From Paenibacillus sp. PL2-23 (lineage in GTDB: Bacteria > Bacillota > Bacilli > Paenibacillales > Paenibacillaceae), in the NCBI RefSeq assembly GCF_040834005.1, contig NZ_CP162129.1:4881001-4945000 (forward strand): a DNA stretch of 64,000 nt, given 5' to 3'. The notes below the pieces were generated by a model. That model saw only the letters and a program-made list of their open reading frames with translations. It did not search any database and had not been told where the DNA came from. Of the stretch, positions 14,464-41,630 are shown one piece after another. A program made the translations under genes and the position numbers. The first letter of the stretch is position 1. The number at the start of each line of letters is the position of its first letter.

Positions 14464-16209
14464 CTATTCCCCGCTCCCCAGCGGAATACGAATGGTGGCG
14501 ACGGTGCCGCCGCCTCTGCCTCCGGCGCCCTCGCGCGGCGCATAGCTCAGACCGTACGCTTCGCCGAAGTGCAGCTGAATCCGTTGATGCACATTGCGGA
14601 TGCCATAACCGGCATCCGTAATCTCGCCTTGCACAATGGCGTTCAATCGGTCATAGCTGACCGGCAGGAAGCCATTGTCCAGGACGCTCATCCGGATCTC
14701 GCCGTCCTCCTGGCGCACGCGAACCACGACCTCACCCTCCCCTTCCATCCCGCTGACGGCATGGAAGATCGCGTTCTCGATAAGCGGCTGCAGAATGACC
14801 TTCGGCGTCAGACTGCTCTTCAAGGCTTCGTCTATATCCCAGCTCATCTCGAAGGTGTCCGGGTAACGCTGCATCTGCAGCCGGCCATACGCCTGCGCGT
14901 GCTCCAGCTCCTCCTCGATTGTGATCATCGTGCGGCCTTTGCTGAGCCCTATGCGCAGCAGCTTGGACAGATCCTTCACCATATCCCCAACCCCCGTATT
15001 GCCGCTGTCGAGCGCGTACCAATAGATGGAGTCGAGCGTGTTGTACAGCAGGTGAGGCGTAATCTGCGAATGCAGCGCGGCCAGCTCGTTCTCCTTCTGC
15101 TTCAGCTGCATCACGTAATTTTCCTCCACCGACTGATTCAGCCTGCGTGTCATCTTCAGAATCGCGCCGTGCAGGATGCCCAGCTCATCCGAGCGAAGCG
15201 GCTCCTCCCGCAGCGCGAGAGGCTTGCCAGGCTCATAAACCTTGGTCAGAGCAACCAGCTGCGTCAGCGGCTTCACCAGAATGCGAAGCAAATACAGCAG
15301 AAAGCCCAAGACAAATATGAAATAAGCGATGGACACGATCGTCATCAGCAGCCGGAACGACGTCTGGTTGCCCGTAATGGAGTCCAGCGGGATCTGGTAG
15401 ACGAGGTGCGTATCGAATGCGGATCTCCAGGAATACGCAAACAGCCATTTCTGGCCGTTCTGCTGGGCAAAATAGTAGCCCTCCATTCGCTTCTCGGCCT
15501 GCTGCGGCACCCTGTCCATCGTCAGCTCCGCCGGTCCCGTCTTCATCAACAATTCGTTCAGCTCGTTAAACATGAATAGTCCCGCATTGTCAGGCAGCTG
15601 AACAGAGACCAAATCACGGTTCAGCAGCACCTTCAAGTTCGAGACCACTAGGAAGCCTTTGATCGAATCATATTTCTGAGGGTCCAGAATACTTCGCATA
15701 AACCGGACATCGCTGGTGCCGTCCTCCGACTGGACCAAGCGGAACGTGCCGCCTCCGGCTGCCCTGATCGCGTGCAGCGTCCAGTATGGAAGGCCATACC
15801 CGTCCGAATTCAAATAATTGAAGCCTCTCCGCTTGCCCGACAAATCAATGGGCGGCTGCATCTGCTCTACGTTGAACATATACAGCGAAAATTCCGTGCC
15901 GTCCGACGACCAGCGCTCCAGAATATCATCGGCAGTCTTGATGTCGCCAAGCGTCTCGATCCGCTGCCAGAACACTCCATTGGAATAATCAAAGAAATAA
16001 CTATCCAGAAACGTTGTTGTTCGGTCATTCACCTCTGACATCGTCTTCTCGATCGTCAGATGGTTCTGCTTGACGAGCTGAACCGTCGTACGGCCCAGCT
16101 CATCCATCATAGCGTCGGTCGCCTTGCTCGACGAAATCCAGCCCACGATCAGGAAAGGCGCAATGATTAAGATGGCGAAGGCAGCCGTCACCTTGAATTT
16201 AAGCTTCAC
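14464..16209 (-). CDS. YesM-type sensor histidine kinase
   Basis: A 581-residue membrane kinase. One transmembrane helix lies near 7-27, then an extracytoplasmic sensor region (about 30-280), a second helix (about 285-308), a HAMP-like linker, the His_kinase phosphoacceptor segment with HSQITPHLLYNTLDS, and a C-terminal ATPase domain with VLQPLIENAIFHAV and GYGIRNVHQRIQLHFG. GTG 16209 follows GGGAGGGACGAGA. It is 17 bp after its response regulator gene. Such pairs normally sense extracellular sugars and control nearby CUT1 genes. Either flanking transporter operon could be the target. Confidence 0.93.
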   Translation of the reverse strand: MKLKFKVTAAFAILIIAPFLIVGWISSSKATDAMMDELGRTTVQLVKQNHLTIEKTMSEVNDRTTTFLDSYFFDYSNGVFWQRIETLGDIKTADDILERWSSDGTEFSLYMFNVEQMQPPIDLSGKRRGFNYLNSDGYGLPYWTLHAIRAAGGGTFRLVQSEDGTSDVRFMRSILDPQKYDSIKGFLVVSNLKVLLNRDLVSVQLPDNAGLFMFNELNELLMKTGPAELTMDRVPQQAEKRMEGYYFAQQNGQKWLFAYSWRSAFDTHLVYQIPLDSITGNQTSFRLLMTIVSIAYFIFVLGFLLYLLRILVKPLTQLVALTKVYEPGKPLALREEPLRSDELGILHGAILKMTRRLNQSVEENYVMQLKQKENELAALHSQITPHLLYNTLDSIYWYALDSGNTGVGDMVKDLSKLLRIGLSKGRTMITIEEELEHAQAYGRLQMQRYPDTFEMSWDIDEALKSSLTPKVILQPLIENAIFHAVSGMEGEGEVVVRVRQEDGEIRMSVLDNGFLPVSYDRLNAIVQGEITDAGYGIRNVHQRIQLHFGEAYGLSYAPREGAGGRGGGTVATIRIPLGSGE

Positions 16210-16226
16210 TCTCGTCCCTCCCGCCG

Positions 16227-17855
16227 TCAGCCATCCTTCCGGTATTCCGCCGGGCTGACCCCAACGCTTCGCTTGAACATCCGGCTGAAATGCTCAGGCG
16301 ATTCGTACCCAACCTCATACGCGATTTCGTACCGCTTCTTATCCGTTGTGGCCAGCAGCTGCTTCGCCTCGTCGATACGCAGCTCCGTGACGAAATCCCA
16401 TATATTTTTTTTCATTTCCTTCTTGAACAAGTAACTGGAATAGGCTGTGCTGAAATGCACTTCCTCTGCAATATCCTGAATCTTCAACGCGGGATTGCGG
16501 TAGTTATCGCGAATGTAGGCCGTAATTTTGGAAACGATCGACAAATCCCTTTCTTCGGCGCAGGCCCGCAGCAGCTCAGCTGTTTCCCTCATATACGCGC
16601 TCAGTCCCTTCAACCTTTCAGCCTGTGAACCTCCCCGGAAATAAACGCCGGGATCGAAACGCTGCAGGCTTGCCCCCGCAAGATGGCCGTATTCCAGCAG
16701 CAAGCCATACAATCGGTAGACCAGCATGCCAAAATAACGATGAAACAGCTCCTCCGAATCGCCCAGCTCCTCCAGCGGCTCCGTCATGGATGTCCAATCC
16801 ATGGAAGCAGCCTTGGCCATTTGGCTCTTCAGCTCCTGCACGAACTGGTCGATTCGCGCCGCCCATTCGACGATGCTGAGATTCTCGTGGATGAGCCGAT
16901 CCTCGTAATAGAACACATGGTTGCTGGGATGAATCGTCTTCCATTCCGCCGCCTTGTTCGCCTCATCCATCAGCTTCGGCAGCGAGAAGACGTCCGGATG
17001 CGGCTTGCTAATGCCGATTGTCGCCTCCAGATTCAAGAATTGCTTCAGATTCGTATGCAGCTTCTGGCCGATCAGCTGCAGCTGCGTCTTCAGTCCCATT
17101 GCCGAAGCGCTCGGTACAGACATCTCCGGCTCGTTCAGCTGCAGAATGGCGACCAGCCCGTTGCCGTAGCCGGTCAACACAGTGCCCCTCCACTCGGCCA
17201 AGCTTTCTTCCAGCAGATTCATGGCCGCATATTTCAACAGCTTGCGGTCCTGCAGCGTAATTTCCTTCCGACTGAAGCCGCCCTCCGCCAGATTGAGACG
17301 AACCGACACCACCACGAACACCGGCGCTTCTCCCCGCTCGCCCAGAGAGGCGGTCAGATCCTCCCGGTCCTGCTTCGACAGCGTTCCCTCCGTCACCAGC
17401 TCCAGCAGCAGCTCATGCCGGGTCAGCGACTCCGGCCGGCCCAGATGGCGCTTCGAGAGCTCCAGAGACTGGCGCCCAATCTCTTCCTTCTCGCGAAGCA
17501 CCTTGCCGACCACCTGCAGCAACACTTCGCGCTCCACCGGCTTGACCAGATAATCCCTGGCCCCCAAGCTAAGCGACTTCTTGGCAAAATCGAATTTCTC
17601 ATGTGCAGAGATCACGATAACGGGCAGATGCGGCTGCTCCATATAGATGGTTTCCATAAGCTCAATGCCGGTCATTCGGCTCATCTGAATATCCGTAAGC
17701 ACCAAATCATAGGTGTCCATGCGCAAATAATCGATCGCTTCAAATCCGTTCAATGCGGTCTCAACATGGGATATATGCAGCTCAGAAGCAAGCAGCAGGT
17801 TGCGAATGCCCGCGCTGACCCTCGGCTCATCGTCTACGACCAATATCTTGTTCAT
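16227..17855 (-). CDS. YesN-type response regulator with AraC HTH
   Basis: A 542-residue protein with a receiver domain (1-125, phosphoacceptor Asp55 in LVLTDIQMSR and a conserved Lys in DYLVKPVE). A central region of about 300 residues is typical of this class. Two AraC-type HTH motifs lie at about 440-540 (IQDIAEEVHFSTAYSSYLFKKEM; YEIAYEVGYESPEHFSRMFKR). The ATG at 17855 is spaced correctly from GAGGTGAT; a GTG at 17864 overlaps that site. It is the partner of the kinase just downstream. Confidence 0.94.
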   Translation of the reverse strand: MNKILVVDDEPRVSAGIRNLLLASELHISHVETALNGFEAIDYLRMDTYDLVLTDIQMSRMTGIELMETIYMEQPHLPVIVISAHEKFDFAKKSLSLGARDYLVKPVEREVLLQVVGKVLREKEEIGRQSLELSKRHLGRPESLTRHELLLELVTEGTLSKQDREDLTASLGERGEAPVFVVVSVRLNLAEGGFSRKEITLQDRKLLKYAAMNLLEESLAEWRGTVLTGYGNGLVAILQLNEPEMSVPSASAMGLKTQLQLIGQKLHTNLKQFLNLEATIGISKPHPDVFSLPKLMDEANKAAEWKTIHPSNHVFYYEDRLIHENLSIVEWAARIDQFVQELKSQMAKAASMDWTSMTEPLEELGDSEELFHRYFGMLVYRLYGLLLEYGHLAGASLQRFDPGVYFRGGSQAERLKGLSAYMRETAELLRACAEERDLSIVSKITAYIRDNYRNPALKIQDIAEEVHFSTAYSSYLFKKEMKKNIWDFVTELRIDEAKQLLATTDKKRYEIAYEVGYESPEHFSRMFKRSVGVSPAEYRKDG

Positions 17856-17964
17856 GCGTATCACCTCGAAGGGGTAGATTACCGCTCAGTGTATCCCATG
17901 GCATTGCGCCTGTGAATGATGTATCCCCGCCTTAATGTGATGGATTCTTCTTATATTTGCAGAC

Positions 17965-18008
17965 CAAAAAGCCCCGTCACGTCTCCGATCATGGAGACAT
18001 GACGGAGC
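17965..18008 (-). terminator. Intrinsic terminator after the SGNH esterase gene
   Basis: The stem CCGTCA-GTCTCC / GGAGAC-TGACGG is followed, reading leftwards on the minus strand, by CTTTTTGG. It sits 29 bp after the stop at 18037 and marks the end of the second sugar-transport operon. Confidence 0.75.
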
Positions 18009-18036
18009 TCGGTCCTTCTGTGTCATGGCCTAGTCG

Positions 18037-19074
18037 TTATTTCACAGCATTCAGCATAGCGCTCAGCCTCGGAGCCAGCTTCTCTCCAATCTCGATCATT
18101 CCCTGATCGTCTGGATGCAGCAGGTCTTGGGTCAGGCCGCGCATGTCCGACAGCAGCTCTCTTCCGTCGATATAATGAACATTCGGCAGCACCTTGTCCT
18201 CCGCGATGCCGCGAAGAACCTCGCGATACTCCGCAGCCGTGGACACGGGATGGCGATTGGGCCTGCTGAGGCCGAGATCATGGTACGACGGGAACAAGCT
18301 GATGCAAGCGATCGGCTTGCCCTGATGCGCCTCCGCAATCGTCCGGACGAAGTACCCTGCCTTCTCTTCGAACTCGGCAGCGCTGACGCCTAGACCAAGC
18401 ATATTGACTGACAGACAGAGCGTTAAGATATCCCAATCTGTTCGGTCTGCAATATAGTGAGCAAGCGCCGGCTCGCAGAAGGCGGTGCCTGATGCTCCCA
18501 GATTAATAACGTCCGCCTTCAGCCGCCACGCGGTCTGGCTAACGTATGACAGAGCCGGATGCGTCGCGGAATAGCCTTGGGTAATGGAGGTACCGTAGGC
18601 GAGATAGCGCAGTGACGGCAGCTCTTCGGCGCGCGGCGCGCGAATGCCCTCGCCCTCGACATTCAGCAGCTGTATGCGCCCGCCCTGAAACAGCAAACGC
18701 CATACCTGGGGAGCGAACGCTCCTCTTAGGCGAGGCGAATCGGCGATCGGCGTCGTCAGGAAGCACAGCTCGGGCGGCGCCAGCTCAATGGTTGTCGGCT
18801 CGGTGCCTATTGTGTATGCGCTGACCGCAAAGTCGCCCATATAGAAGTAAGCCTGCGAAGGGGCTTCCTGGCTGACAAGCGTAATCCGGACAGGCGAGGC
18901 GTCCGCCCCAGCAACCAATCGAATCTCACAGCCCGCTGCTGCTTGGTATACCGACTGCGACGCCTCTCTCAGCTCCCTGCGCACCGCCTCCGGCACGCGC
19001 TGGAACAGCGCGCCCTCGCCCTCCGTTTTCACTGTCTCCGCCACATTATGAAGCTCGTATCTAGCCATCATCAT
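18037..19074 (-). CDS. SGNH hydrolase with N-terminal beta domain
   Basis: A 345-residue protein. An N-terminal jelly-roll-like region (about 1-150) precedes the catalytic SGNH domain. Block I is YLAYGTSITQGYSA, with the Ser nucleophile in the GTSIT motif. A Gly block (INLGASGTAFCEP), an Asn-type block (LCLSVNMLG) and a C-terminal DLLHPDDQGM Asp/His pair complete the set. ATG 19074 has a GGAGTG site; longer starts lack one. There is no signal peptide. It is the last gene of the 18037-25041 operon and probably an acyl esterase for the imported sugar. Confidence 0.85.
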   Translation of the reverse strand: MMMARYELHNVAETVKTEGEGALFQRVPEAVRRELREASQSVYQAAAGCEIRLVAGADASPVRITLVSQEAPSQAYFYMGDFAVSAYTIGTEPTTIELAPPELCFLTTPIADSPRLRGAFAPQVWRLLFQGGRIQLLNVEGEGIRAPRAEELPSLRYLAYGTSITQGYSATHPALSYVSQTAWRLKADVINLGASGTAFCEPALAHYIADRTDWDILTLCLSVNMLGLGVSAAEFEEKAGYFVRTIAEAHQGKPIACISLFPSYHDLGLSRPNRHPVSTAAEYREVLRGIAEDKVLPNVHYIDGRELLSDMRGLTQDLLHPDDQGMIEIGEKLAPRLSAMLNAVK

Positions 19075-19209
19075 CCTGTCACTCCTTCGATTTTGTGCGG
19101 AAGCTGGCCCGTCTCTGCGACAGGCCGGTCCGCTTCCCATAACCTTTATTGTAGACTTAATCGGCTTCAGGGTCGATGATCAATAACGTGACGCGATACA
19201 ATGGGATCC

Positions 19210-20067
19210 TTATTTCATGCCCGACATCGCAATGCCCTCGATAAATTTCTTCTGGGCGAAGAAGAACACGACCAGCAGAGGCAGCGTCGCAATAACGGAG
19301 GCCGCCATCAGCAGATGCCACTCCGTGCCGCTCTGGTCTGTGAACAGGGACAGCGCCAGGGGCAGCGTATACAGCTCGCTGGAGTTCAAGTAGATCAGCG
19401 GCTCAAAAAACTCGTTCCAGCTATGCAGAAATACGAAGATGCAGAGCGTCGCCAGCGCCGGCACGCAGAGCGGCAGCATGATGCGAATGAACGTCGTCCA
19501 CGGTGTGCAGCCGTCAATCTTCGCGGCTTCATCCAGATCGGACGGCACCGTGATGAAGAACTGGCGGAGCAGGAACACGCCGAACATGCCGTACGCGCCC
19601 AGCATGGGAGGCACGATAAGCGGGAAGTGCGTGTTCACGAGCTGAAGCGCCGTCATCCACTCGAACAGCGGAATAGCCGTTACCTCGGTCGGAATCATCA
19701 TACTGCTGAGCAGCACGAGGAAGATGGTGTTCTTGAACGGGAACTGCAGCTTTGCAAACGCATAGCCGGCTAGCGCGGCGAACAGGCAGGTGCCGACCGT
19801 GACCAGCACCGCGATATAGGTACTGTTGAAGAAATACAGATGGAACGGCTGACGCGTAAATACCTCTACGTAGTTCTCCCATACGAACGGACGGGGAATC
19901 CATTGCGGAGGGAACAGAAATATTTTGGACTGATGCTTGAGCGACGTCGTCACCATCCAGAAGAATGGCACCAGAACAATCGCAGTAACGATGCTGAGCA
20001 GCACATAGGTTGTCGTGTTGGCGGCCAGGCTGCCCGCTCTTCGACGAGAGAAGCTCTTATTGCTCAT
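19210..20067 (-). CDS. CUT1 ABC transporter permease (MalG-like)
   Basis: A 285-residue inner-membrane permease with six hydrophobic segments. The EAA loop is DEAAKIDGCTPWTTFIRIMLPLCVP, and the C-terminus (FFAQKKFIEGIAMSGMK) is the MalG/UgpE-type ending. ATG 20067 has AGAGGTGGG upstream. It overlaps the partner permease gene by 11 bp, a sign of translational coupling. Confidence 0.93.
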   Translation of the reverse strand: MSNKSFSRRRAGSLAANTTTYVLLSIVTAIVLVPFFWMVTTSLKHQSKIFLFPPQWIPRPFVWENYVEVFTRQPFHLYFFNSTYIAVLVTVGTCLFAALAGYAFAKLQFPFKNTIFLVLLSSMMIPTEVTAIPLFEWMTALQLVNTHFPLIVPPMLGAYGMFGVFLLRQFFITVPSDLDEAAKIDGCTPWTTFIRIMLPLCVPALATLCIFVFLHSWNEFFEPLIYLNSSELYTLPLALSLFTDQSGTEWHLLMAASVIATLPLLVVFFFAQKKFIEGIAMSGMK

Positions 20068-20932
20068 GATGGACCCACCTCTTTCTTACGCTCCACTGCA
20101 CCAGCGTCAGCGCAAGCACAATGAAGAACAGAATGAATGCGATCGCCGACGCGTAGCCGAATTCATACAGCTTGAACGCCTGCTGATAGATGTAGTAGAC
20201 CAGCACGTAGGTGCTTGTGCCCGGACCTCCGCCCGTCATAACGTAGATTTGGCCGAACACCTTGAGCGAGCCAATCAGCGTCAGCATCAAGGCCAGGAAC
20301 ACCGATGGTGAAATAAGCGGAAGTGTAACCTTCGTCAGCACATTCCAGCGCGTCGCGCCGTCAAGCTCGGCCGCCTCGTAATACATCTTCGGCACATCAT
20401 GCAGCGCCGCAAGGAAGATGACCATATTAAGCCCCACGTTCTTCAGCACGCTCACGACGATAACGACAGGCATCGCCAAATCCATGTTGTACAGCCATGC
20501 CGGACCTTGAACGCCAATCATCTCCAGCAGCTGGTTCACCATACCCGCGTCTGTCGCAAAAATATATTTGAACACGATCGCCCAGACGACCAGCGATGTC
20601 ACGACCGGCGTGAAGATCGCGGTCCGGAAGAAGCCGATGCCCGGCAGCTTGTTCTTGAGCAGCAGGGCCAGCCCCAGCGCCAGCAGCAGATTCAGCGGCA
20701 CGAGCCCCGCCGAGAAATACAGCGTATTGCCGACGGTTTCCCAGAAGACGGGATCATTCGTGAAGGCGGTCTTGTAGTTGTCAAAGCCGATGTAAGACGT
20801 TTCCTTGAACAGTGACCAATTCGTGAAGCTCATAAAAAACGCCGTCAGGATCGGGCCAAGCAGGAATGCCGCAAAGCCGAGGACCATCGGGCTGATGAAT
20901 AGATAGCCGTACCACTTTTCACTTCTCAGCAT
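20057..20932 (-). CDS. CUT1 ABC transporter permease (MalF-like)
   Basis: A 291-residue permease with six membrane segments and the EAA loop YYEAAELDGATRWNVLTKVTLPLISP. ATG 20932 follows GGAGAGAAG. It pairs with the overlapping MalG-type gene and the lipoprotein at 21013-22359. No ATPase gene is present, so a shared MsmX-like ATPase is likely. Confidence 0.93.
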   Translation of the reverse strand: MLRSEKWYGYLFISPMVLGFAAFLLGPILTAFFMSFTNWSLFKETSYIGFDNYKTAFTNDPVFWETVGNTLYFSAGLVPLNLLLALGLALLLKNKLPGIGFFRTAIFTPVVTSLVVWAIVFKYIFATDAGMVNQLLEMIGVQGPAWLYNMDLAMPVVIVVSVLKNVGLNMVIFLAALHDVPKMYYEAAELDGATRWNVLTKVTLPLISPSVFLALMLTLIGSLKVFGQIYVMTGGGPGTSTYVLVYYIYQQAFKLYEFGYASAIAFILFFIVLALTLVQWSVRKRWVHHEQ

Positions 20933-20957
20933 GATTGCTTCTCTCCTTTTGCGCGGA

Positions 20958-20988
20958 CGGCCAGGCGTCTTCATGAGGCGCCTGGCCG
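20958..20988 (-). terminator. Intra-operon stem-loop after the binding-protein gene
   Basis: A perfect 10-bp stem, CGGCCAGGCG / CGCCTGGCCG with an 11-base loop, lies between the solute-binding protein stop and the permease start. No U tract is present. It is in the same position as the hairpin at 5145, and likely raises binding-protein output relative to the permeases. Confidence 0.65.
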
Positions 20989-21012
20989 CTCGTGCAGGGC
21001 TATTCTGGTTGA

Positions 21013-22359
21013 TTATTTGTTAAGCAGAGGATTAACCTCGGCTTCCATACGCTTCAGCACTTCCTCCACCGATTCGCTCTGCGTGTAGAGGTAATCCAGC
21101 AGCGTCTGCACCTTCACGTCGATCTGCTGCCAGTTGGGATGTCCCGGCGCGATTTTGGCGTCGCTCATCTGATCCAGCACCGCCACTTGAATGCTCTCCG
21201 GCGACGGCTGCGGAGCCGCCTTCATGAAGACATCCGATTCCAGCACGGATTTGCGGGACGGCACGAAGAACGCCGAAGTCTTGCCCATAGAGGTTTCGTT
21301 CGAAATAAATTTCAGGAAAGCCATCGCCTCTTCCGGATGCTCCGTGTCGAATACGGAGTAGCCCGCGTAGCCCAGCGTTGTGCCGCGGCCATTCATTCCT
21401 TCCGGCATCGGCGCGATATCCCACTCAAAATCCTTGATTTCTCTCGTCTTCGACACATAGCTGTAACGATCCGTGTACATGCCGAGCTTGCCAGTGTCGA
21501 ACGTAATCTCGTCGCCAGGCTTCGGATGAGCTCCGTCCTTGAAGATGAGATCGTTATAGATTTGCAGCGCTGCCTGTCCCTCTGCGGTGTTCAGCGTGAA
21601 GGATTTGCCGTCAGCGGAGAACAGCTCCGCGCCATGGGACCAAATAATAGGCAGAAGCGCGTCGGACCAGTTCTTCCAGTCGCGGATGAGACGAACGCCA
21701 TAGATGCCCTTGGAGTGATCGGTAATCGCCTTCGCCGCCTGCAGATATTGCTCATAGTTCCAGTTGCCCTCGGCATATAGCTCGGAAGGCGTCTTCAAGC
21801 CTTTCTCCTGGAACAGCGTCTTGTTGTAATAGACAAGCATCGGAGGCGTCGAGAACGGAATACCGTACACCTTCTCGCCGCTCGTGAACAGCTCCAGCGT
21901 CGACGGGAACACATCGTCGAACTTGTAGTCCGCATCGCCCTGGACGGAGGAAGCGATATCGACCAATTGTCCGGAATCCATAAACTGCGGAATCATCCGT
22001 TCAGCGAGCCAGCCGACATCCGGTCCCGTCTTCGACGCCAGCATGATGCTCAGCTTCTGCTGATAGTCCGCGAACGGAATGTTGATGATTTCTACGTCAA
22101 TATGCGGATACTCCGTCTTGAACTCCGCGATCAGCCCGTCGTACATCGCTTTATGCGCGTCGTTGCCCCACATGCTGAATTTCAGCTTGACCGGCTTCTG
22201 AGCTTCGCTGTCCTTGCCTGGATTCTCCGTCGCCGTACCGGCGCCGTTATTCCCTCCGTTGTTCCCGGCTCCGCCGTTCGAGCCCGCGTTCGACGCGCAG
22301 CCCGCCAGCATGCTTACGATGAGCAGGACTGCCGTTAGCAGCATTGATGCTTTCTTCAT
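21013..22359 (-). CDS. CUT1 ABC transporter solute-binding lipoprotein
   Basis: A 448-residue family 1 extracellular solute-binding protein. The signal peptide MKKASMLLTAVLLIVSMLAG is followed by lipobox Cys21, then a Gly/Asn-rich linker of about 35 residues. The mature domain opens KLKFSMWGNDAHKAMYDGLI, typical of MalE/UgpB-like proteins. ATG 22359 has GGAAGGGG upstream; in-frame ATGs further out add a non-signal-like tail. A near-cre site lies 36-50 bp upstream. The kinase and regulator genes just upstream probably control it. The substrate is unknown. Confidence 0.93.
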   Translation of the reverse strand: MKKASMLLTAVLLIVSMLAGCASNAGSNGGAGNNGGNNGAGTATENPGKDSEAQKPVKLKFSMWGNDAHKAMYDGLIAEFKTEYPHIDVEIINIPFADYQQKLSIMLASKTGPDVGWLAERMIPQFMDSGQLVDIASSVQGDADYKFDDVFPSTLELFTSGEKVYGIPFSTPPMLVYYNKTLFQEKGLKTPSELYAEGNWNYEQYLQAAKAITDHSKGIYGVRLIRDWKNWSDALLPIIWSHGAELFSADGKSFTLNTAEGQAALQIYNDLIFKDGAHPKPGDEITFDTGKLGMYTDRYSYVSKTREIKDFEWDIAPMPEGMNGRGTTLGYAGYSVFDTEHPEEAMAFLKFISNETSMGKTSAFFVPSRKSVLESDVFMKAAPQPSPESIQVAVLDQMSDAKIAPGHPNWQQIDVKVQTLLDYLYTQSESVEEVLKRMEAEVNPLLNK

Positions 22360-22394
22360 GTTTGTTTCCCCTTCCGTATCTCTTAGGTTTATAG

Positions 22395-22409
22395 TGTGAA
22401 GCGCTTTCA
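22395..22409. promoter_or_regulatory. Possible CcpA (cre-like) site
   Basis: TGTGAAGCGCTTTCA contains the palindromic core AAGCGCTT of catabolite-repression elements but has one base offset from the 14-bp consensus. Its position just upstream of a sugar-transporter gene supports it. Confidence 0.45.
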
Positions 22410-22508
22410 TGTGTTAAGTATAAAAAAATACCTCTCCCGAAAAAATCATCTGAAATCGAGAAAAGGTATGAGAAATCGAGACGTTGAACCCAGGGGCCTA
22501 GGGAGCCG

Positions 22509-23264
22509 TCATGGCGCTCCCGTCTGGTCCCGGTATTGCGAAGGGGTAACCCCGACGCTGTCCTTGAACACCGCCATAAAATGCTTCGAGCTGGCGTACC
22601 CCGACAGCTGGGCGACCTCGTATATTTTCAAATTCGTCTCCTTAAGCAGCTGCTTCGCCTTGTTCATCCTGCACTGCGTGACATAGTCCGAGAAGTTCTG
22701 GCCGGTCTCGTTCTTGAACAGCACGGACAGGTATTGATGGTTCAGATGCACCTGCTCCGCCATATATTGCAGCGAAATTTCCTGATCGAGGCGCGCCGCC
22801 ACCAACTCCTTCACCCTGCGGATCAGCTGTCGGCCCTGCGTGGCCTCCTCATCCTCTCGGGTCTGCTCCACTCCCGGCTCCAGCTGCCGCCGCTTGCGCT
22901 TGAACTGCTCCAGCGCCTGAGTCAGCTCCACCCTGTCCACCGGCTTCAGCAGATAGTCGCTAATGCCGTAGCGGATCGCCTGCTTGGCATATTCGAAGTC
23001 CGCATACCCGCTTAGAATGAGAATATCGAGCTCCGGGCAGCGCTCGCGCAATCTTCTGATCATCTCCAGGCCATTCATCTCATTCATGCGAATATCTGTA
23101 ATAAGAATGTCCGGCTTCCGGCTCTCCAGCGCTTCGAGCGCCTCTCTTCCATTAGCAGCCTCGCCAATGACCTGAAAGCCGCCGATGACCTCCTCTATCA
23201 GCTGCTTGAGACCGCTCCGTATAATAGCCTCGTCCTCGACAAGAAATAATTTGTATACGTTCAT
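22509..23264 (-). CDS. YesN-type response regulator, short form
   Basis: A 251-residue protein. The receiver domain (1-120) has phosphoacceptor Asp57 in DILITDIRM and Lys in DYLLKPVD. It is joined almost directly to an AraC HTH pair (about 150-250; LQYMAEQVHLNHQYLSVLFKNET, YEVAQLSGYASSKHFMAVFKD). The large middle domain found in the 16227 regulator is absent. ATG 23264 follows GGAGGGAG. It starts 1 bp after the kinase gene and is 149 bp upstream of the binding-protein gene, its likely target. Confidence 0.93.
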   Translation of the reverse strand: MNVYKLFLVEDEAIIRSGLKQLIEEVIGGFQVIGEAANGREALEALESRKPDILITDIRMNEMNGLEMIRRLRERCPELDILILSGYADFEYAKQAIRYGISDYLLKPVDRVELTQALEQFKRKRRQLEPGVEQTREDEEATQGRQLIRRVKELVAARLDQEISLQYMAEQVHLNHQYLSVLFKNETGQNFSDYVTQCRMNKAKQLLKETNLKIYEVAQLSGYASSKHFMAVFKDSVGVTPSQYRDQTGAP

Positions 23265-23265
23265 G

Positions 23266-25041
23266 TTACTCCCTCCATTGAATCGGCAGCCGGATGGAAA
23301 AGCGCATGCCAACAGTAACCGTGTGGTCGATATACAGTCCATAAGGCTCGCCATACAGCAGACGCACTCGCTGATGCACGTTGCGGAGCGCGAAGCCCTT
23401 CTTCACCTTGCCGAAGCCAACGCCTTGGCTATTCTCATCCTGCTCCTTCGGCGAGTGCTGACGGTGGCATTCCGCCTCCAGCCGCTTCATTCGCTCGGGA
23501 GACATCCCCCGCCCGTTATCCTCTATAATCAGAATCAGGTCATCGTCCTCGACGCGGGCCATGAGGCTCATGCGCACTGGAGCGGCGCCCATGGCGTGCT
23601 CGATAATATTTTCGACAATGGGCTGCAACAGCAGCTTCGGAACCATGCAGTAGTCATAGGAGGAGTCGATGTAAATATCCGACTGCAGCTGGTCGCCGAG
23701 ACGCATCGCCTGGATCTGCAGGTACGATTCCACGAATCGAAGCTCGTCCTGCAGGCGAACCTGCTGCTCCTGCTTGTCCACCGTATAACGCAGCAGCTTG
23801 CCCAGGCTCGTCGTAATGGTGGAGAGCTGCTGGCCATTCCCCTGGAGCGCCAGCATGTTCATCATTTCAAGCGTGTTGTACAGGAAATGGGGATGAATCT
23901 GGCTCTGCAGCGCAGACAGCTCCGCCTCACGCTCCCGCAGCCGAGTCTCGTAGACCTCCTTCACAAGCCGATCGATCTCCCCGATCATCGTATTGAAGCC
24001 CTCGGTCAGCTGCCCGATCTCATCATTCGTCGTAACGACGGCCCGCTCCTGGAATAAGCCTCGCTGCACCTGCCTCATCTTCGAGAGAAGATGCGCAATG
24101 GGATTAACGAGACGCTTCGAGGAGATGACGGCCGCCGCATAAGCGGCGAACAGCGCGATAAGAGATACAATCAACGTGAACTGGATGAGCTCCCTCGCAT
24201 CCTTGCGCAGATCGTCGCGCGGAATAACGGCCGTTACCTTCAAGCCCGAATAAGCGGACTCTGTCGACGCCACCATCATGGTATCATCCGGCGGCGAAAC
24301 GCCGGCATCTGACGAATAGATGGCATTGGTTCCATCGGAGATATAGAGCACGCTGCCGTCGCTGATGCGGACTGACGACAGCATCGACTCGAAGCTGCGC
24401 GGCGTCAGATCAACCTTGACAATGCCCAGCGTCTCGTTTGTATAAGGCTCTCGAATGACACGCGATATGGAGACGACCTCCTTCGGCGTGACATAATAGC
24501 TGGCCTTATGGGGCGGAATAATCGTCAGTCCGCCGTCCTCCTGCTTCACCCGCTCCATCCAGTCGGAGGTGGCGGGATTCCATATTTTGCGCGCGCTGAG
24601 ATCCAGACTGCTGAAGATACTGCCGTCATTGGCGAAGATCAAGAGGCTCTCAATCTCGGAACGATCGAACGACAGCGAGGAGATAAACAAGGTCATCTTG
24701 GACGACTCGTCGACCGTCTGGTAATTCGACTCCTGATAAGGCCCGCGGTGCGCGTTCAGAATCTGCATGACGTCCTCGTTGTAGTGAGGCATTAAGGTGA
24801 GTCGCTCCATCTCCCTGATATAGCGATCCAGATTGAGAATAATCTGGTCAACAAGCTGAGAGGTCAGCTCCGTCGTGTTCCGTTCCACGTCGTCTGAATA
24901 TTTGCGGTAGGTGATGGTGCCGATAATGAGGAAAGGGATTGTGATCAGCAAGCAGAACAGGATGACGAACTTCATTCGCAGCGGAAAATATATGGAGCTT
25001 GAGCCTAGCCAGGAGCCCCATCTTCCCTTCGCCGTTTGCAC
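23266..25041 (-). CDS. YesM-type sensor histidine kinase
   Basis: A membrane kinase of about 591 residues: helix near 22-42, Cache-like extracytoplasmic domain to about 290, second helix, HAMP (KRLVNPIAHLLSKMRQV), His phosphoacceptor region HPHFLYNTLEMMNML, and ATPase domain with VENIIEHAM and FALRNVHQRVRLLYG. The frame remains open far upstream across the divergent gene, but the only start with a ribosome binding site is GTG 25041 (GAGGGGG, 8 bp spacing). It is cotranscribed with the response regulator. Confidence 0.9.
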   Translation of the reverse strand: MQTAKGRWGSWLGSSSIYFPLRMKFVILFCLLITIPFLIIGTITYRKYSDDVERNTTELTSQLVDQIILNLDRYIREMERLTLMPHYNEDVMQILNAHRGPYQESNYQTVDESSKMTLFISSLSFDRSEIESLLIFANDGSIFSSLDLSARKIWNPATSDWMERVKQEDGGLTIIPPHKASYYVTPKEVVSISRVIREPYTNETLGIVKVDLTPRSFESMLSSVRISDGSVLYISDGTNAIYSSDAGVSPPDDTMMVASTESAYSGLKVTAVIPRDDLRKDARELIQFTLIVSLIALFAAYAAAVISSKRLVNPIAHLLSKMRQVQRGLFQERAVVTTNDEIGQLTEGFNTMIGEIDRLVKEVYETRLREREAELSALQSQIHPHFLYNTLEMMNMLALQGNGQQLSTITTSLGKLLRYTVDKQEQQVRLQDELRFVESYLQIQAMRLGDQLQSDIYIDSSYDYCMVPKLLLQPIVENIIEHAMGAAPVRMSLMARVEDDDLILIIEDNGRGMSPERMKRLEAECHRQHSPKEQDENSQGVGFGKVKKGFALRNVHQRVRLLYGEPYGLYIDHTVTVGMRFSIRLPIQWRE

Positions 25042-33808: not shown

Positions 33809-35464
33809 TTACTCATAGGTGGGATACACGATGCCTATATCCCGCGCTTCCACAAGCCTTCCGTAATCATAGTCCAGCTGCTGATTCCCCTTCACTGCCA
33901 CAGGAATAGCCTTCCCTTCCACTGTCAGCTCCCCGCTCACAGGCGCGACGCTCATACCAACGATGCCAAGCAGCTTGCCGGACCGATCAAGCCGGACCCG
34001 AATGCCTCCCGGGAAGCGCATATGCTCCTTCCCGTCCCGGTATATAGCGGAGCCGGCTCTGCTATTCACAAGCTCGTAGCGAACGCCGTCCACACTCCGG
34101 CCGTATGCCGTCTCGTCCGCCACCTCAGACCCATGATCAAGCGGATAAGGCCGCACCGCCGTGAACCACAGCTCGCCCTCCGGAGTGGGCAGGATGCCGC
34201 ATAGCCGCTCGACATAGTCCAGCACACACAGAATGGCCGGCGAATACGATTCCGTAAAGCCCTCCTGGCCGTTCCATGGACTGAGCGTCTGGCCGAAGCG
34301 CCTCATATGGGACGCCGCTGACAGAATGGGCTGCATGACCCAGGTCAGCTCCACATGTCTGCCATGCTTCTCGAAGGCGTGCGGCGTGCGGATCAGGCTC
34401 AGGAAGTTAGTAGTTCCTCCCCAGCTGTTATAGCTGGAGGAGGGATCGAATCTTGGATCGTCCATTGCGATAGACGTGAAGGGGTATCGGGCAAAAAATT
34501 TCCTTGTATTCAGCAAATACCGCCGCAGCATCTCGTCGAAAAACGCCTGGTCGCCAACCTCGCAGGCAAGCACCCGCAGCAGCACATCGGACTGGATGCG
34601 CACAAACCGATCATGCTTGTCGCGGTCATAGAAGAACTGATCTCCTTCGTCGAAGCAATGCTCGAACAGGCTGCCAAGCGTCTGCTCCGCTTTGTCCAGC
34701 CAGACCGAAGCCTCCAAGCCAAGCTCCTCCGCAATGGCCGCCAGATACATCCGCTGGCAATACACGTTGGCCGTCAGATCCGGCGCAAGAAACGGAAGGA
34801 TCGGCGAGTTGGGGTCACACTGAGCGGCGTCGCCATCATGAGGCGCATCCGGCGCATGCCAGAACCTCGGGGAAAGATCATGACCGGTATCGAACGTGCT
34901 GAACGCCTCTACACAGCCTGTCGAGCGCGTATTGCGATGCTTCGCCAGCCACTCGTCATATCGGACCATCGCCTCGTACATCGAGCTCAGGAAGGCCCGG
35001 TCTCTGCCATTCAGCCGGTAATGATTCCACACGGACCGCGCCAGCGGCGTCACAAGCTGAATCTGCCTGTACGCCGGTCCCTGATCAGTGATCTTGTACG
35101 GCAGCAGCCCGTCCTCCCTCTGATGAACTGCAAAGGAGAGGAACGTCGACTCCGCCACGGACGGAGCAAAGCGCGCAAGCAGCTCGGCATTGATCGTACC
35201 CGTGCTCTCCAGCCAGCACCCGCGGTAGATCCCTCCCTCGTGAAGGATTGGCGCTGGTTCGGCGCCTGTAGGAACAATACAGTCCAGCAGCTTGCGCATA
35301 GCGCTGCCATATACCTCCTCAAGCGGTCCGCCAGACGCCGCAAACGCGACGTCCGAGCGCTCCCACTCCGCCATAACCTGCCGATCGGATGGCTTCGAGC
35401 CTTCTCCGAAGGGGCTGGCGCCTGACTTCCCTCTCAAGCGGTCCAGCAACATCATTTCATCCAT
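33809..35464 (-). CDS. Alpha/alpha-barrel glycoside hydrolase-like protein (GH63/MGH1-like)
   Basis: A 551-residue protein without signal peptide. Its motifs resemble the (alpha/alpha)6 barrel of GH63/MGH1-like glucosidases: GGIYRGCWLESTGTINAELL, YDEWLAKHRNT, and FDPSSSYNSWGGTTNFLSL near 370. Catalytic residues cannot be assigned safely by eye. A C-terminal beta-rich part begins near 450. The ATG at 35464 follows AGGTGAT. It lies 18 bp after the chimeric gene, whose solute-binding half suggests that a sugar-transport locus once stood here. It probably acts on an imported oligosaccharide. Confidence 0.68.
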   Translation of the reverse strand: MDEMMLLDRLRGKSGASPFGEGSKPSDRQVMAEWERSDVAFAASGGPLEEVYGSAMRKLLDCIVPTGAEPAPILHEGGIYRGCWLESTGTINAELLARFAPSVAESTFLSFAVHQREDGLLPYKITDQGPAYRQIQLVTPLARSVWNHYRLNGRDRAFLSSMYEAMVRYDEWLAKHRNTRSTGCVEAFSTFDTGHDLSPRFWHAPDAPHDGDAAQCDPNSPILPFLAPDLTANVYCQRMYLAAIAEELGLEASVWLDKAEQTLGSLFEHCFDEGDQFFYDRDKHDRFVRIQSDVLLRVLACEVGDQAFFDEMLRRYLLNTRKFFARYPFTSIAMDDPRFDPSSSYNSWGGTTNFLSLIRTPHAFEKHGRHVELTWVMQPILSAASHMRRFGQTLSPWNGQEGFTESYSPAILCVLDYVERLCGILPTPEGELWFTAVRPYPLDHGSEVADETAYGRSVDGVRYELVNSRAGSAIYRDGKEHMRFPGGIRVRLDRSGKLLGIVGMSVAPVSGELTVEGKAIPVAVKGNQQLDYDYGRLVEARDIGIVYPTYE

Positions 35465-35482
35465 ACTGCCTATCACCTGCCG

Positions 35483-36982
35483 TTACTGGTTACTATTGAA
35501 TATGCTCACAGCGCCCTTATAGAAATCTTGCACCGCTTCTTCTACATTCTTGCGGCCGAACCCAATTTCCTGCACCGTCGTCTTGCCCAGCTTCTCAAAT
35601 TCTGCGAAGCCAGGAGGATTGTAGCTTACCGCGAATGGCTCGGTCTCGGCCGCTTCGGACACGCGGCTAGTATAATCGTAGACAATCTTGTCGACATCGT
35701 TGGCCTCAGCTTCCAGCACGCTGCGGTTCTTCGATGTGACAGGCACGCCGCGATTGTTGCCCAGAATCAAGGCGGCTTCAGGGTCGTTAATGAAGAAGCT
35801 CATCAGCATGGCCACTTCCTTCGGATGCTCCGTCTTGGCGTAGCCGGACAGCCCTTGGCTGGACTCGAACACGACCCCCGTACCCTTCGGTCCTCTCGGC
35901 AGCTGCACCATCGTCAGCGGGTCCTCCGTCAAGCTCTGATAAGCGCCGAGCTGATTGGATGGAATCAGATTCATCGCGGCCTTGCCGGATGTAATCAACG
36001 ATTTGCTGGGATCGTCGATAGGATGAGAGACGGCCAGCTCAGGCGTTACGACGCCTCCGTCAGCTGCAGCCTTAGCCCAGTAATTAAACCAAGCCCGTGC
36101 ATTTTCCTCCGCATATAAGTCGCTTTCCGGCACGATGCCAACCAGCATCCAGTTCGTACGCTTCAGCTTTTTGAACACTACGATTTCCTTATCCCCGCTC
36201 GCGTCGTTCGTATAGATGACACCCTGCTTGCGCTTGTCCTTCTTAATATCCTGAATAAGGAGCTCACGGCTATCCCCGTCCGATGCGGCAAATCCATGCT
36301 GAGCAAGCAGCGGCGCCCCCTCCTGGTCAAGCAGATAGATGGAGCCCGTCTGCCCCAGATGAATCCGGTCCAGCGGCTGCAGGAAGTAGTCGGTGCTTAC
36401 GTTGATCTTCATGAAGGAGACAGCATGTGTCGGCTCGAACGTGCCGATCGGCATAACCATGCTGACCACCGGGTTGGTGCTGTTGAATCGGGCTTCAACG
36501 GGATCGGCATGGCCGGACACCCAGCGGTGGCCCTCCTGAACGAAGGCCTTGTACCACTCCTCCGCCAGGAAGTCGATGTCCTGCTCCACCTGGTTGTCCG
36601 CACTGATCCACATGCCGCTCTCTCGATACACGGTCACACGCTGCACGCTTGAGTAGCTGTTCGTCGCTTGGGTCAGGAAGGCGCTCATCGCCAGATTCGC
36701 CAGCATCTTCTCTCCGGCAGGCAAGCCCTCATCGCTCATCGCCGCGTCCCACTCCCTGGTCGTCTTGTTATTGAACACAAGCGAGGCCACATCGTAGATT
36801 TGCATCTGCACCATGTCTACGTATGAGCCGTATTCCTCCATCTTCTCCAAGGCCGAGGATTCTATGTAGGACAAGATGATGGCTCTGGAAGCATTGAACA
36901 AGACAGCCGACAGCGCGCCGAAGGACAGCACAAACAATATGATAAAGATTGCAATCAGCCTGCTTTTGAGCGAATAAAACAT
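35483..36982 (-). CDS. Chimera: kinase sensor domain fused to half a solute-binding protein
   Basis: A 499-residue single frame. Residues 1-290 are the N-terminal half of a YesM-type kinase: helix at 9-30, then a Cache domain ending FKKLKRTNWMLVGIVPESDLYAE. After about residue 292 the sequence becomes the C-terminal part of a family 1 sugar-binding protein (ARAWFNYWAKAAADGG; LTSGKAAMNLIPSNQL-like; EHPKEVAMLMSFFINDPEAA). No HAMP, phosphoacceptor or ATPase domain remains and no lipobox precedes the second half. An in-frame deletion joining two neighbouring genes explains it. The product would be membrane-anchored with both parts outside. It may be a remnant. Confidence 0.85.
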   Translation of the reverse strand: MFYSLKSRLIAIFIILFVLSFGALSAVLFNASRAIILSYIESSALEKMEEYGSYVDMVQMQIYDVASLVFNNKTTREWDAAMSDEGLPAGEKMLANLAMSAFLTQATNSYSSVQRVTVYRESGMWISADNQVEQDIDFLAEEWYKAFVQEGHRWVSGHADPVEARFNSTNPVVSMVMPIGTFEPTHAVSFMKINVSTDYFLQPLDRIHLGQTGSIYLLDQEGAPLLAQHGFAASDGDSRELLIQDIKKDKRKQGVIYTNDASGDKEIVVFKKLKRTNWMLVGIVPESDLYAEENARAWFNYWAKAAADGGVVTPELAVSHPIDDPSKSLITSGKAAMNLIPSNQLGAYQSLTEDPLTMVQLPRGPKGTGVVFESSQGLSGYAKTEHPKEVAMLMSFFINDPEAALILGNNRGVPVTSKNRSVLEAEANDVDKIVYDYTSRVSEAAETEPFAVSYNPPGFAEFEKLGKTTVQEIGFGRKNVEEAVQDFYKGAVSIFNSNQ

Positions 36983-40097: not shown

Positions 40098-40530
40098 CGT
40101 TGGAGCGACACGTGGTGTCGTTGTTGCTGGCTTTGCGGCTGTTCCGTGCGCTGTAACGACACGTGGTGTCGTTGTTGCTCCATCTGCGACGGTCCGCAGC
40201 CCTATAACGACACGTGGTGTCGTTGTTGCTCCATCTGCGGCGGATCGGAGCGCTATAACGACACGTGGGGTCGTTGTTGCTCAATTTGCGGCGGTCCGCA
40301 GCCCTATAACGACACGTGGTGCCGTTGTTGCTGGCTTTGCGGCGGTCCGCAGCCCTATAACGACACGTGGGGTCGTTGTTGCTCCATCTGCGGCGGTCCG
40401 CAGCCCTATAACGACACGTGGTGTCGTTGTTGCTCACTCTGCGACGGTCCGCAGCGCTATAACGACACGTGGTGTCGTTGTTGCTCACTTTGCGGCGGTC
40501 CGCAGCCCTATAACGACACGTGGGGTCGCA
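40098..40530. repeat. Palindrome array B, 51-bp pitch
   Basis: Nine palindromes of the array A family (core CGACACGTGGTGTCG) start at 40106, 40157, 40208, 40259, 40310, 40361, 40412, 40463 and 40514, each exactly 51 bp apart. Here the outer arms are TAACGACAC-type and the spacer holds a second hairpin, CTGCGG-CGGT-CCGCAG, about halfway. So one inverted repeat falls every 25-26 bp. Several copies have GTGGGG or GTGCCG on the right arm. Both strands are open over 17-codon periods; I treat this as non-coding. The last copy ends about 10 bp before a promoter. Confidence 0.9.
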
Positions 40531-40562: not shown

Positions 40563-40601
40563 AACCTTATCACGATTTGATTGACGAAAGGCGGACAAGC
40601 T

Positions 40602-41375
40602 ATGGAACCTACGTTTACTATTCAGCCCCAAGAGTATACCGCATTCGAAACCGAAAGCCAGCAGCTGGACAAATACAAGGAATGGGGATTCGTCAGCGAG
40701 AAGGCAGTCAAGACGAAAACTCTGCTCTACAAAAAAGATGGAAAGAGCCACGCCTGCGACATCGTTGGTTTCGTCGACAAAGCGACTGCTGTCATCCGCT
40801 TCGAGGATGGACGTCAGCATTGTATCCATCCCTCCTATCTGAAGGAGATGCAGGCATCCAGCTTCGGCGCAAGAGCAAGCGTCACTAGTACAGTAAATGA
40901 GCCAGCGGAGATCGACCAGTCGGCAGACGAACCAGCCCCAGAGGAAATTTCTACGTCAGCACCAGATGAGCCGATCGAGACCGCTGCTCCGTCACAAGCT
41001 GAAAAAGCTCCTGCCGATGCTGAACCCTCTACTCCGGCAGCCGAGGAAGCGCCGAAGAAAACAAAGGGCAAAAAAGAAAAGCTGGAGCTCCCGGAGGGCA
41101 AGGTGAGCATGACGGCAACGGTTCAGGAATTCACAACCGTGCCCAACAACTTCTCCGACAACGACGATGAAGTCGTCATCTACGAGGGAGTATCCATCGC
41201 AGATCCGGCGCTAGAGCTTGGCGCGGCCTGGTCCAGCCACAGCGCAACACTCAAAAAGCTGGAGCTAGCCATCGGTGACACGATTACATTCGAAGCCAAA
41301 GTCATTGCCAAAAAGCTAACCAAGCATCCCGTTCCATACAAAATTAATAACCCCTCGAAAATACAAAAAACCTGA
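40602..41375 (+). CDS. Hypothetical two-domain acidic-linker protein
   Basis: A 257-residue protein I cannot assign. An N-terminal domain (about 1-90: FTIQPQEYTAFETESQQLDKY ... HACDIVGFVDKATAVIRFEDGRQHCIHPSYLKEMQ) is followed by a low-complexity Pro/Ala/Glu/Ser linker (about 95-155), a short basic stretch (KKTKGKKEK), and a C-terminal beta-rich domain (about 165-257) that could be an OB-like fold. No signal peptide, Cys pairs or catalytic motif stands out. ATG 40602 follows AAAGGCGG. It is bracketed by array B upstream and array D2 downstream, so it is a natural candidate for a factor tied to these repeats; that link is speculation. Confidence 0.75.
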   Translation: MEPTFTIQPQEYTAFETESQQLDKYKEWGFVSEKAVKTKTLLYKKDGKSHACDIVGFVDKATAVIRFEDGRQHCIHPSYLKEMQASSFGARASVTSTVNEPAEIDQSADEPAPEEISTSAPDEPIETAAPSQAEKAPADAEPSTPAAEEAPKKTKGKKEKLELPEGKVSMTATVQEFTTVPNNFSDNDDEVVIYEGVSIADPALELGAAWSSHSATLKKLELAIGDTITFEAKVIAKKLTKHPVPYKINNPSKIQKT

Positions 41376-41407: not shown

Positions 41408-41600
41408 AACCATTTGAAGCAAATAGACGTGCCACAAACGTCTAATTGTGCGTAGATCGGCGGTTTGAGCAAATAGACGTACCAGGAACGTCTAAATGTG
41501 TGGAGACCGGCGGTTTGGAGCAAATAGATGTACCAGAAACGTCTAATTGTGCGGAGACCGGCAGGTTCGAGTAAATAGACGTGCCACAAACGTCTAATTG
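41408..41600. repeat. Palindrome array D2, 51-bp pitch
   Basis: Four copies of the D family, TAGACGT / ACGTCTA with 7-bp loops, start at 41424, 41474, 41525 and 41576 (steps 50, 51, 51). The third has TAGATGT in the left arm. Spacers share GTGCGGAGACCGGCGGTTTG-like sequence. It is the same family as array D1, 15 kb away, but the spacers there differ more. It follows the hypothetical gene and runs into a terminator. Confidence 0.88.
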
Positions 41601-41601
41601 T

Positions 41602-41630
41602 GCGGAGCCTACAGGCTCCGCCTTTTTTTT
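41602..41630 (+). terminator. Terminator closing array D2
   Basis: GCGGAGCCT / AGGCTCCGC with a 2-base loop is followed by C and eight T. It probably ends the transcript of the 40602 gene after reading through the array, so the D2 palindromes would be part of its 3' untranslated RNA. Confidence 0.85.

Follow-up and report, generated by a model that had tools for sequence, protein, structure and literature searches.

Related systems and the cluster in other genomes

The yesM-yesN-yesOPQ genes of Bacillus subtilis encode a two-component system and an importer, the latter (yesOPQ) having been linked to the use of polygalacturonan and rhamnogalacturonan (PMC5730181). A system of the same kind is encoded by an intact, collinear six-gene cluster detected in 18 genomes of the same genus as the window (the whole 64,000-nucleotide stretch of DNA analysed here) and in two genomes from other genera of the order. 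The kinase gene comes first, followed by those for the response regulator, permease 1, permease 2, the binding protein and the MGH1-like glycosidase, after which there is often a GH43 gene. The intact kinase contains HAMP, His_kinase and HATPase_c domains, the regulator Response_reg and AraC-type HTH domains, and the binding protein an SBP_bac_1 domain; the closest solved structures to the intact binding protein are 4r6k (a solute-binding protein) and B. subtilis YesO (5z6b, E 1.9e-49). At locus L031 the first four genes of the cluster are seen before the contig ends. The relatives named here are Paenibacillus species.

The locus studied here differs from the B. subtilis arrangement in that the downstream gene encodes an MGH1-like glycosidase and in that the regulator and permease genes are missing. 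It contains a chimeric open reading frame of 499 aa (36982..35483, minus strand) that joins the N-terminus of a kinase to the C-terminus of a binding protein and is very probably the product of a single in-frame deletion of ∼5.2-5.4 kb in a collinear operon, one that probably left a non-working hybrid. Both halves and the glycosidase that follows them keep the order and orientation seen in relatives, orthologues of all three lying in the same order and on the same strand in the intact clusters of Paenibacillus sp. HB172176 (L025), L070 and P. alkaliterrae (L071). In these clusters ∼5.2-5.4 kb separates kinase codon 292 from binding-protein codon ∼236 (5235 bp in L070 and 5410 bp in L025 at the homologous breakpoint positions), and this interval is missing from the window. 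The parents are thus found in order in relatives and the intervening DNA is absent at one breakpoint, as expected of a deletion-derived chimera.

The chimeric gene and its two halves

The chimeric gene begins with ATG, which is preceded by the ribosome-binding-like sequence GGGGGAAGAAGG, and has no internal stop codon. A first-pass annotation, which did not give the strand, had described an open frame of 499 codons in which a YesM-type Cache sensor with its first helix (residues 1-290) gives way at about residue 292 to the C-terminal half of a sugar-binding protein, and the comparison with relatives agrees with this description. Residues 1-292 (36107..36982, minus strand) correspond to the N-terminus of a YesM-type histidine kinase, comprising one TM helix and a dCache domain. 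In a tblastn search, residues 2-291 of the L025 kinase matched window positions 36982-36107 at 70% identity (E = 2.6e-131), and identity to the intact kinases of L025, L070 and L031 is 70-72%. Residues 293-499 (35486..36106, minus strand) correspond to the C-terminal part of a YesO-like family-1 solute-binding protein; residues 236-445 of the L025 binding protein matched positions 36115-35486 at 83% identity (E = 3.3e-114), and identity to intact binding proteins is 83-88%. For both halves the match to these putative parents, which in L025 are 598 aa (kinase) and 445 aa (binding protein) long, is far beyond chance.

Pfam analysis of the chimera detected only Cache-type domains, with dCache_1 (PF02743) at residues 36-282. 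HAMP, His_kinase (PF06580) and HATPase_c, all three of which are present in the intact orthologue, were not detected, nor was there an above-threshold match to SBP_bac_1, which the intact orthologue also has. The chimera therefore retains the TM helix and extracytoplasmic dCache domain of a YesM-type kinase (PF02743, and a long N-terminal helix in the structure model), and has lost the second TM helix, HAMP, His_kinase and HATPase_c. Of the binding protein it keeps the C-terminal ∼206 residues, starting near residue 236 of the parental protein, without the lipobox-bearing signal peptide and without the N-terminal half, so that the two lobes of a family-1 binding protein are not both present. 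The absence of the kinase core, regulator, binding-protein N-terminus and lipobox had been recognized from the sequence at the outset; the losses extend further, to the two permease genes, and no orthologous permeases that could partner a binding protein were found at the locus or elsewhere in the genome.

In the AlphaFold model of the chimera, pLDDT is about 80-94 across most of residues 41-290 and mostly below 50 over residues 293-499, where the alignment held only three rows and is thus biased against that half. The intact binding protein, with an alignment of 14 sequences, models well over residues 50-449. Judged against this intact model, the chimera lacks most of the strands of both lobes, only those at 285-291, 306-309 and 323-331 being retained.

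The MGH1-like glycoside hydrolase gene (33809..35476, minus strand; Pfam PF22422, E 9e-28), which the first-pass annotation did not list, begins 6 bases past the chimera stop codon and its product is 73% identical to that of the gene following the L025 binding protein gene. Elsewhere in the window, two arrays of 51-base tandem repeats (40106-40528, 8.3 copies, 88% match; 41413-41607, 3.8 copies, 86% match) flank an ORF at 40581-41375, and the ORFs within the first array look like repeat artefacts.

Substitution patterns and the age of the fusion

Substitutions unique to the window genome at otherwise invariant sites number 1 in 109 for the kinase part, 3 in 116 for the binding-protein part and 10 in 263 for the glycosidase, and overall are no commoner than in intact relatives. 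When residues unique to the window or to L070 were counted with L071 as outgroup, the values were 13 versus 29 for the kinase part, 8 versus 6 for the binding-protein part and 40 versus 55 for the glycosidase. Relaxed constraint was detected in neither half of the chimera, which would make the deletion young if the gene is neutral. In the kinase part even the closest relative sampled lies at a silent distance above 1, so that nearly all substitutions would predate a recent deletion. On the assumption that the ORF has evolved neutrally ever since it was formed, its freedom from stop codons caps the age of the deletion at ∼0.06 substitutions per site (5% level); a deletion as young as this is possible. 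Relaxed selection was rejected as a clock, as it bounds the age only, and does so only under neutrality. Joint protein alignments A1 and A5, in which the second half of the Cache domain was misplaced, were left out.

These data fit a recent scar and a kept gene alike. It is conceivable, though improbable, that the chimera has a new function maintained by selection, as a Cache sensor or decoy that is tethered to the membrane and bears a portion of a sugar-binding protein; that it is expressed and maintained as a tethered Cache protein rather than decaying, acting as a ligand sink or as a competitor for the dimers of another kinase, is very improbable. The frame open over 499 codons, the GGGGGAAGAAGG sequence ahead of the ATG, the confidently modelled dCache domain and conserved-site substitutions no commoner than in intact relatives would all suit a functional protein. 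An output domain is absent, however, the binding-protein part lacks a lipobox and most lobe strands and models poorly, and the fusion occurs in no other genome of the genus sample or, among the matches listed, of the order sample. A recent deletion accounts equally well for the absence of decay.

The breakpoint and the fate of the missing genes

The junction had been placed near 36100, which proved correct to within a few bases. By blastn and codon comparison it lies at GAG/GAA (36104..36109, minus strand), between codons 292 and 293, and by sequence just before the second TM helix of the intact kinase. Similarity to the kinase DNA of five loci (L025, L031, L034, L040 and L041) ends at 36107. 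The codons TAT GCG GAG / GAA AAT GCA CGG encode Y290 A291 E292 / E293 N294 A295 R296; kinase relatives have GCG GAG CTG at this position and binding-protein relatives GAG GAG AAA AAC GCG (L070) or GAG GAG GAT GCT (L025). Since GAG is compatible with both parents, a microhomology of ∼3 nt is possible. Near the breakpoints in relatives no exact word of more than 9 bases is shared, and a repeat-mediated deletion was rejected because there is no direct repeat above this length and only the ∼3-nt compatible overlap. Joining in frame is a one-in-three outcome.

The kinase core, regulator, permeases, binding-protein N-terminus and GH43 were combined into one concatenated query and compared with the entire 5.48-Mb single-contig genome. 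None of the lost genes had an orthologue elsewhere in it, the best permease match being 39% identical compared with 70-89% among orthologous permeases of relatives, and translocation of the lost genes was rejected on this basis. Another cluster in the window (14671-24249) encodes a YesM-type kinase, a YesN-type regulator and two permeases, which are paralogous to the deleted genes at 25-44% identity.

The junction could instead be an assembly error, the cell itself carrying an intact cluster, but this is very unlikely: the genome was assembled as one 5.48-Mb contig, the lost genes are absent from all of it, and a collapse of repeats would have had no substrate, as exact words common to the two breakpoint regions in relatives are at most 9 bases long.

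Distribution of the fusion

A 200-residue query across the junction gave a junction-spanning match only in the window's own genome among 51 genomes of the genus. This genome was again the only one with a spanning match among the matches listed for 395 genomes of the order, where a full fusion would not be a weak match. Seventeen of the 51 genus genomes had no match to the query at all, and matches in other genomes (the 50 others of the genus and, among the matches listed, the order) place the two halves in separate genes. Likewise, no full-length fusion was present among 20 loci from contigs. Recurrence of the same fusion in many species, which the first-pass annotation had named as evidence against a local deletion, was thus looked for and not found in the genus or order sample, and a recurrent architecture was rejected within these samples and the 20 contig loci. 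That the fusion is an established family architecture is hardly credible when the listed matches in the 50 other genus genomes and the order sample fall in two separate genes.

In genome G036 (L032:4716-5066) the same kinase is reduced to a remnant of 116 codons in which its first ∼98 residues are preserved; a polar amino-acid-type ABC transporter follows, and nothing else of the cluster is present. As in the window the kinase gene is shortened, but it is not fused to a binding protein, and the remnant is an independent erosion of the locus. It indicates that the cluster is lost piecemeal in other genomes too. Nothing specific on comparable bacterial fusion scars was found in the literature.

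Origin of the hybrid gene and its meaning

The first-pass annotation had left a choice between a deletion scar and a new membrane-tethered sensor, and had proposed comparison with relatives carrying the genes separately. Kinase, regulator and binding protein are indeed separate and collinear in 20 genomes, and this, the uniqueness of the fusion and the absence of the lost genes favour the scar; the want of an output domain, an intact binding lobe or any recurrence tells against the sensor. The deletion would have placed codon ∼236 of the binding-protein gene in frame behind kinase codon 292, perhaps through microhomology, with the loss of the kinase core, the response regulator, both permeases and the N-terminus of the lipoprotein. 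The intact kinase would have a TM helix on either side of the dCache domain; as the junction precedes the second of these, a single N-terminal anchor is left in the chimera and all the rest would lie outside, and the protein would probably consist of the first-TM anchor, an intact external dCache domain and a misfolded tail.

Neither a signalling output nor a transport role would be expected of such a protein, and since the kinase core, the regulator, the permeases and a complete binding fold are all lacking, sensing and uptake by the system are not expected either; both functions have most likely been lost. The downstream glycosidase may continue to be produced, with only the promoter of the former kinase gene to drive it; a promoter scan gave results at about chance level and no more.

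The chimera is a real and well-resolved in-frame deletion scar, probably a recent one, and the event behind it is an ordinary one that opens no new biology by itself. It provides a base-resolved case in which one in-frame deletion within an operon has produced an intact-looking hybrid gene. Annotation would name such a hybrid a 'cache domain-containing protein', and the case warns against taking an ORF of this kind for a new architecture.
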